Assembly (NCBI GenBank): GCA_947482115.1 | Contig: CANKII010000002.1 | Coordinates: 124,001 to 188,000, forward strand | Length of the DNA stretch: 64,000 bases | DNA from: Fibrobacterota bacterium | GTDB taxonomy: Bacteria > Fibrobacterota > Fibrobacteria > UBA11236 | Reading direction: 5' to 3' | Shown here: piece after piece, positions 4,391 through 22,309 of the stretch | How positions within the stretch are numbered: position 1 is the stretch's first letter | Layout of the letters: every line of letters begins with the position of its first letter | The notes under the pieces: model-generated | Told to the model about the DNA's origin: nothing | The model's database searches: none | The model's input: the letters and a program-made list of their open reading frames with translations, nothing else | Translations under genes and position numbers: made by a program

Positions 4391-6349
4391 ATGAGAACCC
4401 ACATAGCGATGCTAGGAATGCTTGCGATACTGGAGATTGCCGTTGCCGAGGAGAATTATTCACAATGGTCCAAATACCGCCCCATCTCGATAAATACCAC
4501 TAGTAGTGGCGCAAACGTTGCCGGGACGGTATCGAATTTCCCGGTACTCGTGCGATTGACATCCGCCTATGCTGACGTTTTCACTCAGACATTGAGCGGT
4601 GGCGCCGACATTCGCTTCACGGATTCCACGGGAACGGTGCGATTACCGCATCAAAAAGAAAGATGGGATACCGCTGCACAAGTTGCAGAATTTTGGGTCT
4701 TGGTTCCCAGCATCGCGGGAAATGCCAGCACCGGTATTCGTCTTTACTGGGGGAAGAGCGGCGTCGCCGATAGTTCCAATGGAAGCCGGGTTTTTTCCAC
4801 GGGCAATGATTTCAGGGCTGTCTGGCACCTGAACGAGCCTTCCGGGGATATCAGCGATGTCACCGACAATGCTTTTGCGGGAATCAATAACGGCACGGTA
4901 AGCGCGGCAAGTCAAATCGGAATGGGGCGTTCATTCAATGGAACAACGTCGAATTATATCCGTATCGATAAAAGCGGCCGGGATGACGGCGGTGCCAATA
5001 CGAATAATGCGAAGGCAAGTCTTTTGGATTCCCTGTTAACCACGTTCACCGTGTCGACGTGGTTCAACGCCACCAGTTGGGGTAGCACCGTTTCCAAGCT
5101 TATTTGCCGGGGAAGCTCCACCATCAAATACGCTTTTCAGGGAACCAATCCCGGTTTACTCTTCAATCAAAACGCAACGACTTCGGGCCCCAAAACCACA
5201 AGTGATCCTGCAACCGGCTGGCATTTGGTGCACGGGACATACTCGGGTGGCACGGCGAATTTTTTCATGGATGGCGTGCTCGTTGCTTCCCGGACGGGTG
5301 GTTCCCGCGCCACGGATTGCAGTCCCTATGAATTGATGATTGGTGCACGCAACACCTCCACCGCCTATCCTCCGACTTCCGTCGCCGAGCCTTTCCACGG
5401 GTTGCTCGACGAAATCCGAATCCAAGGCGCGCCGCGAAGCACCGATTGGATCAAGCTGGACTATGAAACGCAAAAGGCCGGTTCGACCGCCGTGACTTTG
5501 GGCGCCACGGTTGTCCGTGTTTCAGGTTCTCCCATCATCATCTCGGGTCCGGCAAACAAAACCTTTGTGCCGGGCACCACCGTGAAGTTCGGTGTGGTTG
5601 CATCGGGCAATGCCACGCTCGTTTACAAATGGGTTCGACGCAATGTGGATACAGTGGGAACCAACTCTGATAGCTTGACTTTGACGAATGCTTCGGCGGC
5701 GGATACGGGGACGTATAAATGCGTGGTGAGCAACAGTCTCGGCCAAGCTGTGACTGCTTCGGCAACGTTGACCCTGGCGATTGCACCTAACATTGTACAA
5801 CATCCCACAGATTGGAATATGCTCAATTTAGGGAGTTACAGATTTGTAGTGGTTGCAACGGGAAGTAATCCGCTGACTTACAAGTGGGTGAAAAACAATG
5901 TGGATACACTTTCAAATACAGGGGTATTCTCAGGAGCAACGACAGATACCTTGAAGTTTACTAATGCTCAAATTTCTGATACAGGAACGTTTAAATGTGT
6001 GGTAAGAAATGTGGCTGGGCAAGCGGTGACTAATACGGCGCATTTGTTTTCAGCGGAAGTAGGTATATCACGAGGTTTTATAAATGGAAATTTCGCCATT
6101 CAAAATCTTGGCTCCTCTGTAAAATTCCATCTTCCCGACGGGATTTCCTCCGCTCGTGTTTCTGTGATGGATGTTTGGGGGCGGATTGTGTGGAACAAAA
6201 CGGCGGGTGGGGGAGTGCATGAATTGGTTTGGGATGGCAAAGTCAATGAAGGCAGGCCAGTCACAGGCATTTACTTTGCACGCATGACCACGGACGATGG
6301 AAAAAATTCCAGGATTCTCGCAGAAAGCAAAATAACCTTGGTTCATTGA
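4391..6349 (+). CDS. Secreted DUF2341/LamG/Ig-domain protein, copy 1
   Basis: 652-residue exported protein. Signal peptide about residues 1-19. A DUF2341 domain follows (about 30-128, with RFTDSTGTVRLPHQKERWD and RLYWGKSG), then a LamG/concanavalin-like fold (about 140-345), two Ig-like domains (about 380-465 and 470-555, each ending in DTGTYKCVV or DTGTFKCVV), and a C-terminal FlgD-like beta domain (RVSVMDVWGRIVWNKTAGGG). Such tails act as secretion or sorting signals in FCB bacteria; whether that holds here is unproven. Likely a carbohydrate-binding surface protein. GGAGG 6 bases before the ATG supports the start. The second Ig domain (5780-6060) is visibly AT-richer than its surroundings. 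A paralogue follows 30 bp downstream. Confidence 0.78.
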   Translation: MRTHIAMLGMLAILEIAVAEENYSQWSKYRPISINTTSSGANVAGTVSNFPVLVRLTSAYADVFTQTLSGGADIRFTDSTGTVRLPHQKERWDTAAQVAEFWVLVPSIAGNASTGIRLYWGKSGVADSSNGSRVFSTGNDFRAVWHLNEPSGDISDVTDNAFAGINNGTVSAASQIGMGRSFNGTTSNYIRIDKSGRDDGGANTNNAKASLLDSLLTTFTVSTWFNATSWGSTVSKLICRGSSTIKYAFQGTNPGLLFNQNATTSGPKTTSDPATGWHLVHGTYSGGTANFFMDGVLVASRTGGSRATDCSPYELMIGARNTSTAYPPTSVAEPFHGLLDEIRIQGAPRSTDWIKLDYETQKAGSTAVTLGATVVRVSGSPIIISGPANKTFVPGTTVKFGVVASGNATLVYKWVRRNVDTVGTNSDSLTLTNASAADTGTYKCVVSNSLGQAVTASATLTLAIAPNIVQHPTDWNMLNLGSYRFVVVATGSNPLTYKWVKNNVDTLSNTGVFSGATTDTLKFTNAQISDTGTFKCVVRNVAGQAVTNTAHLFSAEVGISRGFINGNFAIQNLGSSVKFHLPDGISSARVSVMDVWGRIVWNKTAGGGVHELVWDGKVNEGRPVTGIYFARMTTDDGKNSRILAESKITLVH

Positions 6350-6379
6350 ACAGCTTAGAGAAAGAAAACGGAGGCAATC

Positions 6380-8350
6380 ATGAAAACAAAAATTGGAGTT
6401 TTCGCCGTTCTTTTGGGCATCACGATGGTATTCTCGGAGGAATATTCCCAATGGTCCAGGTATCGCCCTATCACCATTAACACCACCAGTAGCGGTGCAA
6501 ACGTCGCCGGGACAGTGTCGAATTTCCCGGTTCTCGTACGGTTGACTTCAGCTAATGCCGATGTATTTGCCACAGCCTTGAGCGGTGGCGCGGATATTCG
6601 CTTCACAGATTCTACGGGAACGGTGCGATTGCCGCATCAAAAAGAAAGATGGGATACCGCTGCGCAAGTTGCGGAATTTTGGGTTCTGGTTCCCAGCATC
6701 GCGGGAAATGCCAATACCAGTATTCGCCTGTACTGGGGAAAGAGCGGAGTTGCGGACAGCTCCAAAGCTTCGCAAGTGTTCACCGCTTCCAACGGGTTTG
6801 TGAGCGTTTTGCATTTGGGAGACTCGTCCGGAATTCAGCCGCGTCCCAATGCCGTTTCGGGAGCTCCGGCAGCCACGCCGATGAATTTCCCCAATGGTTA
6901 TGCCCCGAAGAACGGTGTCATCGGAATGGCGGATTCACTTCGCGGCGGATTTCCAGCTACCAAGGATTACATGGATTTGGGAACGATTGCGGGATTCTCC
7001 GATTATACCACAGGGTTCACTTTTTCTGCGTGGGTGTATTCCACTGCGCAGTTGAAAGACATGCCTTACTGGAGCAGCGGGAACGGAGTTAGTGACATCA
7101 TCATCGTCGGGCAAAGCGGAACGGGAACCGGTGAAAAATTCCGTTTCAACGTGGGCACGGGCAGTAACATCGGCATCAATGGCGGAGCCAACAAAATTGC
7201 ATTGAACCAGTGGCGGCGCTATACGTACACCAAGGGTTCGGCAAACGGTCCGTTGCGGATTTACATCAACGGCGTTCTGGATTCCACGGTCACTGGTTTG
7301 CAGGACATTCCCAATGTCAGCCGTCCCAACAATTATCTGGGCCGTTCGTACAACGCTCCGGATTCCAATTTTGCGGGAGCTTTAGACGAAGTGCGTCTGA
7401 GTAATTCAGAATTGAGCGCGAACTGGGTCAAGTTGGATTATGAAACGCAGAAAGCGACAGCGACCGCCGTGACTTTGGGTGCCACGGTTGTCCGTGTTTC
7501 AGGTTCTCCCGTAATCATCTCGGGTCCGGTGAGTAAAACTGTTTTATCGGGCGCTACGGTGAAGTTTGGTGTGGTTGCATCGGGCAATGCCACGCTCGTT
7601 TACAAATGGGTTCGGCGCAATGTGGATACGGTGGGGACCAACTCCGATTCCTTGACTTTGACCAATGTTTCAGCGGCGGATACCGGGGCGTATAAATGTG
7701 TGGTGAGCAATAGTCTCGGCCAAGCCTTGACGGCTTCAGCAAGTCTGACCTTGGCGATTGCGCCTGTGATTACCAATCAACCTTTAAATTCCTTTATCCT
7801 GAATGCGGGTGCGGGTACGGCGAGATTTGGGATTAAAGCTACAGGTAGCACTCCGTTGATCTACCAATGGATTCGAAGGAAGAACTCGGTGATAGATACG
7901 TTAACGAATACCGGAATATTTTCGGGTGCGACAACGGACACTTTGACAGTAACTAATCCATTATTCCCCGACAGTGGTTCCACCTTTAAATGTAGCGTGA
8001 GGAATGCAGCGGGTGTCGTTGTGAGTGACTCCGCGGTCTTGAACGTGCGGGCAGTATTAGCTGTTTTTCCTGGAAAAGGCATTAATTCCTTTTCGATCCA
8101 AAACTTGAGATCCTCCGTGAAGTTTCATCTTCCGGATGGAGTTTCCTCCGCTCGTGTTTCCGTACTGGATATCTGGGGACGTATGGTGTGGAGTAAAACA
8201 GCGGGTGGGGGAGTGCATGAATTGGTTTGGGAAGGTTCTCATTCCGGTCCGGTTGCGGTCCCCGGGGTTTATCTCGTTCGTCTCACCGTTCAGGATGCAA
8301 ACCATTGGTCGAGGCTTGCAGGCGAGTCCAAGGTTTTAGTCACACCTTAA
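6380..8350 (+). CDS. Secreted DUF2341/LamG/Ig-domain protein, copy 2
   Basis: 656-residue paralogue of the preceding gene with the same order: signal peptide (1-19), DUF2341 (about 27-125), LamG-like domain (about 135-345), two Ig-like domains and a FlgD-like C-terminus (RVSVLDIWGRMVWSKTAGGG). The DUF2341 block, first Ig domain and C-terminal motif are nearly identical to copy 1. The LamG region and second Ig domain differ strongly, so ligand specificity may differ. CGGAGG precedes the ATG at 6380. Presumably cotranscribed with copy 1. No catalytic motif is recognisable; an adhesin or polysaccharide-binding role is an inference. Confidence 0.78.
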   Translation: MKTKIGVFAVLLGITMVFSEEYSQWSRYRPITINTTSSGANVAGTVSNFPVLVRLTSANADVFATALSGGADIRFTDSTGTVRLPHQKERWDTAAQVAEFWVLVPSIAGNANTSIRLYWGKSGVADSSKASQVFTASNGFVSVLHLGDSSGIQPRPNAVSGAPAATPMNFPNGYAPKNGVIGMADSLRGGFPATKDYMDLGTIAGFSDYTTGFTFSAWVYSTAQLKDMPYWSSGNGVSDIIIVGQSGTGTGEKFRFNVGTGSNIGINGGANKIALNQWRRYTYTKGSANGPLRIYINGVLDSTVTGLQDIPNVSRPNNYLGRSYNAPDSNFAGALDEVRLSNSELSANWVKLDYETQKATATAVTLGATVVRVSGSPVIISGPVSKTVLSGATVKFGVVASGNATLVYKWVRRNVDTVGTNSDSLTLTNVSAADTGAYKCVVSNSLGQALTASASLTLAIAPVITNQPLNSFILNAGAGTARFGIKATGSTPLIYQWIRRKNSVIDTLTNTGIFSGATTDTLTVTNPLFPDSGSTFKCSVRNAAGVVVSDSAVLNVRAVLAVFPGKGINSFSIQNLRSSVKFHLPDGVSSARVSVLDIWGRMVWSKTAGGGVHELVWEGSHSGPVAVPGVYLVRLTVQDANHWSRLAGESKVLVTP

Positions 8351-12524: not shown

Positions 12525-14381
12525 ATGACATTGATTGCATCACGTACCGTTCGAAATTTTGCGCTGGCAATGGCTTGCGGACTTTGCCTCTCTGCTTCCG
12601 TTTTTGCCTCCACCCAAAGCGAAGACGGTGGTGCAGGTGTATTCAGGCTTCAATCGGCTGAATTGCCGAAAGAAACCACGTACGGTGTTGGCCTTTACAA
12701 CCATCTTTTGAACATCAGCGATGGCGCAGCCCCTTTCAACAGCCTCTTGAAGGGACATTCTGTGATGGACACGGGCGGTGTGCTCGGAACCAGTTCGCCT
12801 GCCCATCTTTGGGCTTTGAGCCACACTCTTTCCGCAAGCATTTCCACGCATGAATTTTTTGAATTGCACCTCGCCCTTCCGATGTACACCCAGCTTCTGG
12901 ACTACGGAAACGGATACCATACCAATGTGATTGGCGCCGTGGGCGATGTTCGTTACGGTTTGAAACTGGCCCTGCCCATTGCCGAAGATCATTTCCCTCT
13001 CGCTGTGGCGGTTCTTCTGGGTGGAAGCATTCCCACCGCTTCCGGATTGGTTCCGGTTCCCACCCGTTTGGAATATTTCCCCGAAGACACGGGCAAGGCT
13101 TCCACCAAGAAGTCGACTGGGGATGGAACCCGGCGCGACGACTGGCACCTCGGACTTGCCGCAACTTTGGATCTGGAAAGAAGCACCCTCGACTGGCCTT
13201 TGCAAATCCATTTCAACACCGGCGCGCGCAAGACCAGCGCCCTTATGAAGAAGGACCGGGACTTTTACGATGTCCTTTCTGCGGGTCTGGGTTTCGAGAC
13301 TCAGGTGGTGGACTGGGCCTCCATCGTCGGCGAATACTGGCATGAGAACCGTGTTGAGACATTCAATGGATATCCGAAGGTGGATGACATTTCCCTTGGC
13401 GTTGCCTTCCATACTCCTGTGGGAATCTCGATTCTTGCGGCTGGAGCAATTGGCCTCGCGAATGGTGAATCCACCCGGTATTCGTTCAATGATGACAAGG
13501 GCATTCATCGCTACGACATGAACGTCCGCTCCTCAGCCGACGCGCAGCTGATTTTGGCGGTGACCTACTCCAGTTATATGAAGTCCAGGGATTCGGATCA
13601 CGACGGCGTTCCGGATCGCATGGATAAATGCCCCCGTGAACCCCAAGGAAAGAATGGCAAAAACGGCTGCCCCATGCGCGATCGCGATGGCGACGGCATA
13701 GCGGACAATCTCGACAAATGCCCGGATGAAGCGCAAGGTGTGTTTGGTTCGGAAGGCTGCCCCATCAAGGATCGCGACAGCGACGGCATTCCAGATGATG
13801 CCGACAAGTGCCCCGATGTGGCTCAAGGCACCGGAGGCCTGGATGGCTGCCCGATCCCGGATAGCGACCGCGACGGAATTTGCGACGCGTGGGTTGCTGA
13901 AGGCGGGTTGAGCGCACAGTTTGCCATGGATTGCTCGGGTTCGGACAAGTGCCCGAACATGCCGGCAGGTAAGAACGGTGTGGATGGCTGCCCCGGTCGC
14001 GATACCGTACTCGTGGTGCAGAAGCTGCTTCCTGTTCAGCAGAAGACCTTGGTTCTCCAAGGTGTGACCTTCGAAACCGGCAAGGCCGTGTTCCTCACGG
14101 GCTCCTCGGCGGCGTTGGATGACATCGCAGAGCAGTTGCTGAAAGTTCCGGATGTGGAGCTCGAAATTGCCGGCCATACCGACAATCGCGGTGGTGCAGC
14201 CCTGAACCAGAAGCTGTCGAAGGCACGTGCGCAGGCTGTGGCGAACTACCTCATGAAGCATGGCGTAGCCGCCAGTCGCTTGAAGGTTGTGGGCTATGGC
14301 TCCGACAAGCCCGTTGCGACGAACGGTACCTCGGAAGGCCGTGCACAGAACCGCCGCGTTGAGTTCAACCGGTTGAAGTAA
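12525..14381 (+). CDS. OmpA-family outer-membrane protein with thrombospondin type-3 repeats
   Basis: 618-residue envelope protein. Signal peptide about residues 1-28, then an N-terminal barrel-like region (about 30-350), a calcium-binding thrombospondin type-3 repeat stretch (about 355-490, repeated D-x-D-x-D-G and DKCP motifs) and a C-terminal OmpA peptidoglycan-binding domain (about 510-618; VTFETGKAVFLTGSS, IAGHTDNRGG, RAQAVANYL, GYGSDKP, NRRVEF). The likely role is anchoring the outer membrane to peptidoglycan. It has its own promoter region and a strong terminator, so it is probably monocistronic. Confidence 0.88.
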   Translation: MTLIASRTVRNFALAMACGLCLSASVFASTQSEDGGAGVFRLQSAELPKETTYGVGLYNHLLNISDGAAPFNSLLKGHSVMDTGGVLGTSSPAHLWALSHTLSASISTHEFFELHLALPMYTQLLDYGNGYHTNVIGAVGDVRYGLKLALPIAEDHFPLAVAVLLGGSIPTASGLVPVPTRLEYFPEDTGKASTKKSTGDGTRRDDWHLGLAATLDLERSTLDWPLQIHFNTGARKTSALMKKDRDFYDVLSAGLGFETQVVDWASIVGEYWHENRVETFNGYPKVDDISLGVAFHTPVGISILAAGAIGLANGESTRYSFNDDKGIHRYDMNVRSSADAQLILAVTYSSYMKSRDSDHDGVPDRMDKCPREPQGKNGKNGCPMRDRDGDGIADNLDKCPDEAQGVFGSEGCPIKDRDSDGIPDDADKCPDVAQGTGGLDGCPIPDSDRDGICDAWVAEGGLSAQFAMDCSGSDKCPNMPAGKNGVDGCPGRDTVLVVQKLLPVQQKTLVLQGVTFETGKAVFLTGSSAALDDIAEQLLKVPDVELEIAGHTDNRGGAALNQKLSKARAQAVANYLMKHGVAASRLKVVGYGSDKPVATNGTSEGRAQNRRVEFNRLK

Positions 14382-21415: not shown

Positions 21416-22309
21416 ATGACGCTTTCCGAATCCATCGAACTTTTCCTCGTTTATCTTCGCACCGAACGTGCGGCGTCTCCGAATACCCTGTTGGCCTATC
21501 GCCGCGACTTGAACAAACTGGTGGAATATTTTGAGGTGAGGGGAAAAAAGGAATTGCCGGTGGCTTCCTTGAGCAAAGCCATGTTGCAAAATTTTCTCAT
21601 CAAAACAGGGAAGGATTTAAAACCCGCGAGTCAATCGCGCAGTGTGGCCTGCCTGAAAAGTTTTGGCGGATTTTTAACAACGGCGAATCTGGTGGAGAAG
21701 AATCCCTCGCAGGGATTGCGGTTTCCTAAAAAGGAACAGCATCTGTTTTCTGTTGCGGGAGAAGACATGCTGGCGAACGCTATGGAACCCACAGTAGATT
21801 CCGATCCATTTCTGGATTCCCGCGATCGACTTTGTCTGGAATTGTGCTATGGCTCCGGCTTGCGTCTTGCCGAGCTCATGGGACTGAAATGGAATGACTT
21901 TTCACGCGGTGGCGAATCGGTGCATGTGTTGGGCAAAGGCAACAAGACCCGCACGGTGCCAGTGACTCGCAATGCCCGCGAAGCGTTGAACACTTATCGC
22001 TCCACTTGCACGGACAAAGGTTTCTCTCCACGTGGGGCACTGCTTCTCAGTCACAAAGGATTACCACTCGGACGGCGCACGGTTCAGCGCGTGGTCGAGG
22101 CGCGTTTGCGTGCGCAAGGTCGCAAAGGGAAGTCTTCGCCGCACGTTTTACGTCATTCCTTCGCTACGCATCTTTTGGACAATGGAGCGGATTTGCTGGC
22201 GGTCAAGGAAATGCTGGGCCACTCGTCTTTATCGACGACGCAGAAATACACGCATGTTTCGGTGAAACGGCTGAAACAGGTGGTGTCGGAAAAACATCCG
22301 CGGGGATAA
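21416..22309 (+). CDS. xerC: Tyrosine recombinase XerC/XerD
   Basis: 297-residue site-specific recombinase that resolves chromosome dimers at dif. N-terminal SAM-like domain (IELFLVYLRTERAASPNTLLAYRRDL) and catalytic domain with the R-K-H-R-H-Y set: Arg in YGSGLRLAEL, Lys in KGNKTRTVPV, H-x-x-R in SPHVLRHSFATHLL, His in LGHSSLSTTQ, and nucleophile Tyr in KYTHV. Length fits a housekeeping Xer rather than a phage integrase. XerC and XerD cannot be separated by eye. Confidence 0.92.
   Translation: MTLSESIELFLVYLRTERAASPNTLLAYRRDLNKLVEYFEVRGKKELPVASLSKAMLQNFLIKTGKDLKPASQSRSVACLKSFGGFLTTANLVEKNPSQGLRFPKKEQHLFSVAGEDMLANAMEPTVDSDPFLDSRDRLCLELCYGSGLRLAELMGLKWNDFSRGGESVHVLGKGNKTRTVPVTRNAREALNTYRSTCTDKGFSPRGALLLSHKGLPLGRRTVQRVVEARLRAQGRKGKSSPHVLRHSFATHLLDNGADLLAVKEMLGHSSLSTTQKYTHVSVKRLKQVVSEKHPRG

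Follow-up and report, generated by a model that had tools for sequence, protein, structure and literature searches.

A tandem pair of predicted DUF2341-LamG surface-protein genes with mosaic ancestry in a Fibrobacterota bacterium

Silent-cassette antigenic variation, as in pilE/pilS of Neisseria and tprK of Treponema, uses closely matching donors and fast switching, a variable segment on a constant frame being replaced by non-reciprocal recombination. The two genes described here, a tandem pair at positions 4391-8350 of a 64,000-nucleotide stretch of a Fibrobacterota genome (the window; assembly GCA_947482115.1, contig CANKII010000002.1, positions 124,001 to 188,000, or G000:C2:124001-188000 in our numbering of this 2.72-Mb, 15-contig genome), likewise combine a variable segment with a constant frame, but with no close donor and no fast switching seen. 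The closest known parallel is found in Kgp, RgpA and HagA of Porphyromonas gingivalis, surface proteins of the type IX secretion system (T9SS) with a conserved C-terminal domain; the adhesin variants of Kgp are reported to be unlinked to its catalytic-domain variants, and the repeats break assemblies (PMC5266723). In both settings a large repeat protein (HagA there, giant genes here) carries the adhesin module of smaller proteins. That paper describes modules that are cleaved adhesin domains and DUF2436 rather than LamG and DUF2341, on proteinase-bearing frames in another phylum, and variation among strains of one species, whereas here it lies between paralogues and species and involves many more loci (PMC5266723).

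DUF2341 proteins have been proposed as pilus-tip-like adhesins in methanococci, where DUF2341 also occurs in large surface proteins; the context there is the archaeal type IV pilus, and domain exchange is unmentioned in the relevant passage of that paper (PMC4858521). Literature joining DUF2341 with LamG, or DUF2341 with Fibrobacteres, was not found in a search that most subscription journals lay outside, nor, judged by titles and the beginnings of abstracts, was any description of LamG exchange in bacteria. The pair is well supported as a known kind of system in a new setting, and the finding is broader than at first seen: controlled comparisons show that, within a large family of surface proteins from an uncultured and little-studied lineage, the presumed binding domain and the display frame follow separate evolutionary courses.

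Mosaic divergence of the two copies

Both genes are intact open reading frames (ORFs) on the forward strand in the ORF list, of 652 amino acids (aa; copy 1) and 656 aa (copy 2) with 30 bp between them, and both exceed the Pfam cut-offs for DUF2341 (PF10102), followed by Laminin_G_3 (PF13385, here LamG), and for the Ig domains. At the protein level the copies are 87-88% identical in DUF2341, 87% in the linker and first Ig domain (Ig1), 55% in the second (Ig2) and 60% in the C-terminal domain, with LamG at 32-33% over its alignable part; DNA identities are 80% in DUF2341, 42% in LamG, 86% in Ig1, 58% in Ig2 and 60% in the tail, which includes a 148-bp core at 82%. The Ig2 of copy 1 is AT-rich (GC 41.7% and third-position GC, GC3, 36.4%, vs. 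54.9% and 61.9% in its Ig1), and that of copy 2 has 47.6% GC. The original prediction of tandem paralogues with a mosaic pattern had the coordinates right and is borne out for the similar DUF2341 and Ig1, the strongly diverged LamG core and Ig2, and the AT-rich Ig2 of copy 1; its description of DUF2341, Ig1 and the C-terminal motif as nearly identical holds for the first two as proteins, less so for the tail, and not for the DNA. Divergence was not uniform along the properly aligned genes.

The silent differences are informative about the shared modules. Of the fourfold-degenerate sites in DUF2341, 28 of 56 differ between the copies, against 14 of 61 of those in Ig1 (Fisher p=0.0036), an unequal and substantial divergence; therefore, the shared modules are neither recent copies nor of one age. 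The lower value in Ig1 fits concerted evolution, in which the LamG domains of ancient paralogues would have diverged in place while, genome by genome, gene conversion kept DUF2341, Ig1 and the tail alike.

The LamG of copy 1 resembles that of a quite different gene. By BLAST it is 75% identical over 207 aa to unit 3 of a giant frame elsewhere in the genome (G000:C4:3-7346), and the copy 2 gene is not among its matches at E 1e-4; the DUF2341 domains of copy 1 and of this giant unit are 47% identical. Three-way alignment revealed a single switch in and a single switch out, both at domain edges: before LamG, copy 1 is 90% identical to copy 2 and 46% to the giant unit, inside LamG 31% and 75%, and after it 84% and 26%, which places the two LamG domains of the pair in different lineages. 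On the predicted structure of copy 1, the 5' junction falls on the first LamG strand and the 3' junction on a short helix behind the last. In 11 such triples, hand-picked after the identities had been seen, the switch in lies at the DUF2341/LamG border in nine and the switch out no more than about 12 residues from the DWIKL motif in eight, leaving two misfits at the 5' side and three at the 3' side. With junctions this sharp, it can be stated which pieces are interchangeable. The Ig2 of copy 2 is 74% identical to that of G000:C2:405596-407692, a gene whose DUF2341 is only 58% like that of copy 2; therefore, Ig2 has moved too.

On one side the pair borders on genes for a phosphate-selective porin and an Rrf2 regulator, on the other side on that for FeoB, and a congener (G002) carries one DUF2341 gene between porin (68% identical) and FeoB (71%) in the same order. 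The frame of this gene is 60% identical to copies 1 and 2 in DUF2341 and 52-53% in Ig1. Its LamG is 29% and 21% identical to those of copies 1 and 2 in one alignment and 25% and 26% in another, and finds its best match outside itself, at 58%, in unit 3 of the C14 giant frame of the window's genome, the DUF2341 of which is 39% identical to that of the G002 gene. One locus across two species, each represented by one genome, thus holds three LamG lineages, two of them with their nearest relatives (among four genomes) in giant frames. In the two other congeners, G001 and G003, no DUF2341 match lies on the FeoB contig among the matches listed. The porin-FeoB locus offers a fixed place at which LamG turnover could be measured in strain or metagenome data.

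Ancestry of DUF2341 and LamG across the family

Phylogenetic analysis covered 90 units from four congeneric genomes, obtained from 94 DUF2341 hits (two on G003:C68 being overlapping frames) after three without LamG and one with a 55-aa DUF2341 fragment were dropped. DUF2341 and LamG identities correlate at 0.19 over 4005 pairs, and the two trees have 14 of 87 splits in common. At a support of 0.95, the other tree contradicts 11 of 19 clades in the DUF2341 tree and 23 of 33 in the LamG tree, against 0-2 conflicts in eight within-domain split controls, so that the per-domain phylogenies suggested along with the original prediction do disagree. In Shimodaira-Hasegawa and approximately unbiased tests (the latter with 2000 replicates, flagged as too few by the program), the tree of each domain was rejected on the data of the other. 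The second genus (G005 and G006; 88 of 90 listed places taken, two of G006 left out, giving 89 hits and 87 units with full LamG) repeated the pattern more weakly at the same support, with conflicts in 7 of 22 and 10 of 38 clades and none in six controls. By these comparisons the adhesin module and its frame have separate ancestries, and LamG domains have moved between genes of the family repeatedly.

Faster evolution of LamG and Ig2 than of DUF2341 and Ig1 after duplication was the first rival to be weighed. Exposed domains are often fast-evolving, and LamG is the most divergent domain within the pair. However, in cross-species pairs that are reciprocal-best in both domains, DUF2341 and LamG are about equally conserved, with means of 65.0% and 64.9% in 9 pairs of the first genus and 69.5% and 67.1% in 14 pairs of the second, and one pair has 71% in DUF2341 and 86% in LamG; therefore, these selected pairs argue against fast LamG evolution as the cause. 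Unequal constraint is further contradicted by the other parent lineage of the copy 1 LamG, which is close to a unit with a distant DUF2341. Rapid point mutation under unequal constraint was rejected on these two grounds, and we give it hardly any weight.

Concerted evolution finds more in its favour. The nearest DUF2341 is in the same genome for 54 of the 90 units (permutation mean 29, maximum 49) and the nearest LamG for 44 (mean 29, maximum 47); in two giant frames of G005, four DUF2341 units match in order at 70-78% and their LamG domains at 27-38%; and the Ig1 at the G002 locus is 82% identical to one G002 paralogue vs. 52-59% to the best genes of the window's genome, although another G002 paralogue reaches only 56%. 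Against it stand the close relative of the copy 1 LamG in a gene of other architecture and the third LamG type in the syntenic G002 gene, and under conversion alone, the modules that flank LamG in copy 1 would have had to be replaced to its left and to its right. Concerted evolution around ancient paralogues is thus unlikely as the whole explanation, but conversion may well act in addition; for the gene conversion of the frame raised in the original prediction, the lower silent divergence of Ig1 fits and is no proof.

Probable module exchange and the giant genes

The account that we favour, and consider likely, is that copies 1 and 2 stem from the tandem duplication of a single gene for a secreted surface protein, and that LamG, and to a lesser degree Ig2, would be an exchangeable module of the DUF2341 family: paralogues would have recombined at two borders, DUF2341/LamG and LamG/linker, so that LamG was replaced while DUF2341, Ig1 and the sorting tail stayed. 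The simplest mechanism would be general homologous or homeologous recombination with protein function as the filter; the frame probably undergoes gene conversion in addition, and LamG exchange may diversify adhesion on a constant display frame. The cassette exchange of LamG that had been proposed at the outset is sustained by sequence comparison on three counts, namely the other parent lineage in a giant gene, the third LamG lineage at one and the same locus in G002, and the conflict of domain trees in two genera, which together establish modular ancestry at this level.

Several observations weigh against this account. The LamG of copy 2 has no close relative, and hence no parent, in the four congeneric genomes (best 36-43%); donor cannot be told from recipient, nor which way the transfer went; and old LamG paralogues in a frame kept uniform by gene conversion would give a partly similar picture. 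Resolution of the domain trees is poor: two halves of the same domain share only 15-23 of 87 splits for DUF2341 and 40-51 of 87 for LamG, and the control halves have half the columns and hence fewer supported clades. At a support of 0.8 the contrast with the controls is weaker: 41 of 51 and 47 of 60 clades conflict between domains, and the controls conflict too (16-30 of 37-50 clades for DUF2341, 7-16 of 48-58 for LamG). Each tree also fits the other domain better than eight relabelled trees (log-likelihood losses of 2051 vs. 2830-2990 and 4704 vs. 7251-7615); therefore, some co-inheritance of DUF2341 and LamG remains and the trees are not independent. This co-inheritance is stronger in the second genus, with 25 of 84 splits shared and a correlation of 0.39. 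The reciprocal-best control was selected on LamG similarity and leans to unswapped pairs, and in one of its 9 pairs from the first genus (copy 2 and a G001 gene) DUF2341 is 63% and LamG 40% identical. For the proteins themselves, copy 2 scores 21.3 bits against TIGR04183, the NCBIfam model of T9SS tails, below the 23-bit cut-off that copy 1 exceeds at 28.1 bits; the structure models of copies 1 and 2 are modest (mean predicted local distance difference test scores of 70.0 and 63.6); and the 50 listed rows of a fold search with the copy 1 model are Ig-domain proteins, silent on LamG.

Programmed variation would mean that LamG is rewritten within a short time by a diversity-generating retroelement, a shufflon or a silent-cassette switch. 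It would agree with a presumed binding domain that varies modularly on a constant frame, and the multi-unit giant genes, whose ends are missing from the assembly, could be cassette stores. The genome has no match to the reverse transcriptase model PF00078, which 3 of 14 control genomes match, and none to the serine recombinase model PF07508 (small serine invertases, PF00239, were not searched). Only two tyrosine recombinases (phage integrase family, PF00589) were found, probably XerC and XerD; some 13.5 kb separate the nearer one, at 21812-22264, from the pair. The choice among synonymous codons is free at the two junction motifs (compared in 32 and 33 units of the genome; across the four genomes the motif patterns were located in 67 and 64 of 91 units), so no conserved DNA site is seen at the exchange borders. 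Between the copy 1 LamG and its nearest relative about 51 of 82 fourfold sites differ, which leaves no near-identical donor in sight, and no DNA tract of at least 100 bp and at least 76% identity lies over either LamG, with unseen units possible where the giant frames are cut by contig ends. Reverse transcriptase, conserved junction DNA and a near-identical donor were all looked for without success; a programmed switch is therefore less likely than ordinary recombination spread over evolutionary time, and we regard it as highly improbable; as far as sampled, the exchange is old, with no running switch.

DUF2341 is matched 42 times in the window's genome, and 16 of these matches belong to four giant open frames (2409 to 2784 aa), each with four units and each cut off at its 3' side by the edge of a contig: the starts of C4, C8 and C14 and the end of C11. 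The three other genomes of the genus have 10, 11 and 28 and two sister-genus genomes 44 and 46, for a range of 10 to 46 units per genome in the six counted. With copy 1 as query at E 1e-30, 11 of 31 genomes match; all 11 belong to the same order, and the 20 from elsewhere in the class give no match. The giant ends on C4, C8 and C11 share stretches of 144-183 bp at 94-99% identity, and the assembly may break there as a result. Contigs that end inside such frames and share these stretches would be the place to suspect an assembly or binning artefact, but the pair sits 128 kb into a contig of 505 kb, both of its frames are intact and the pattern recurs in other genomes; for the pair, an artefact is extremely unlikely.

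The giant frames are themselves mosaics of one another at the DNA level: read from its left, that of C11 matches in turn the C4 giant, the C8 giant and a two-unit gene (C8:98029-100566). The C14 giant frame contains a long internal repeat (frame positions 6187-7655; 949 bp at 84%), and a 1489-aa frame at G000:C1:612491-616957, without a DUF2341 match, has a series of Ig domains akin to Ig1 (about 41-54% identical). For the 25 non-giant units of the genome, the nearest in-genome LamG is in a giant frame in 14 cases and the nearest DUF2341 in 3; of these 14 LamG domains, nine are matched at 56% or more and five at only 38-45%. The discordance is 12 vs. 1 (p=0.003), in a comparison picked after the data had been seen. 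Tentatively, the four-unit genes might form a store of LamG cassettes that refits single-unit T9SS-type adhesins at fixed loci, a lectin library swapped at domain borders and common to several species, although we are more inclined to doubt this than to accept it. Modular exchange also suggests why contigs end in DUF2341-LamG genes and why whole-protein trees of them mislead.

Predicted secretion and features of the locus

The signal peptides of both copies were judged by eye. The genome has 32 TIGR04183 matches, 27 of them over the cut-off, and one SprA_N match (86.3 bits), SprA being the sole component of the T9SS machinery searched. The T9SS is a likely route of secretion for copy 1 and a plausible one for copy 2, and both proteins would be displayed at the surface, where LamG, going by its fold family, would be the domain that binds glycans or other surfaces. 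Searches of solved structures with both LamG domains gave nothing firm, the best being arabinanase 5hon for copy 2 (E 0.033). The LamG region of copy 2 (6794-7420) is also matched weakly by NF052521, the model of the fimbrial protein TafC (27.7 bits against a cut-off of 410).

Table 1. Coordinates in the window of the two genes, their modules and the predicted exchange junctions.
Feature	Position	Strand	Description	Basis
Copy 1	4391..6349	+	signal peptide, DUF2341, LamG, Ig1, Ig2, T9SS-type C-terminal domain	ORF, Pfam, TIGR04183
Copy 1 DUF2341	4451..4807	+	kept module	Pfam, alignment
Copy 1 5' exchange junction	4790..4828	+	VFSTGNDFRAVWH; identity changes from copy 2 to giant-gene unit	three-way alignment
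Copy 1 LamG	4808..5443	+	putatively exchanged module	BLAST, alignment
Copy 1 3' exchange junction	5444..5476	+	DWIKLDYETQK; identity returns to copy 2	three-way alignment
Copy 1 linker and Ig1	5444..5782	+	kept module	alignment
Copy 1 Ig2	5783..6046	+	diverged module	composition
Copy 1 C-terminal domain	6047..6346	+	T9SS sorting type	TIGR04183
Copy 2	6380..8350	+	architecture as copy 1, downstream of it	ORF, Pfam
Copy 2 DUF2341	6437..6793	+		Pfam
Copy 2 LamG	6794..7420	+	nearest in-genome LamG 36-43%	BLAST, alignment
Copy 2 linker and Ig1	7421..7759	+		alignment
Copy 2 Ig2	7760..8047	+	closest to Ig2 of G000:C2:405596-407692	alignment
Copy 2 C-terminal domain	8048..8347	+		alignment

Elsewhere in the window, an OmpA-family protein with thrombospondin type 3 repeats is encoded at 12525-14381.

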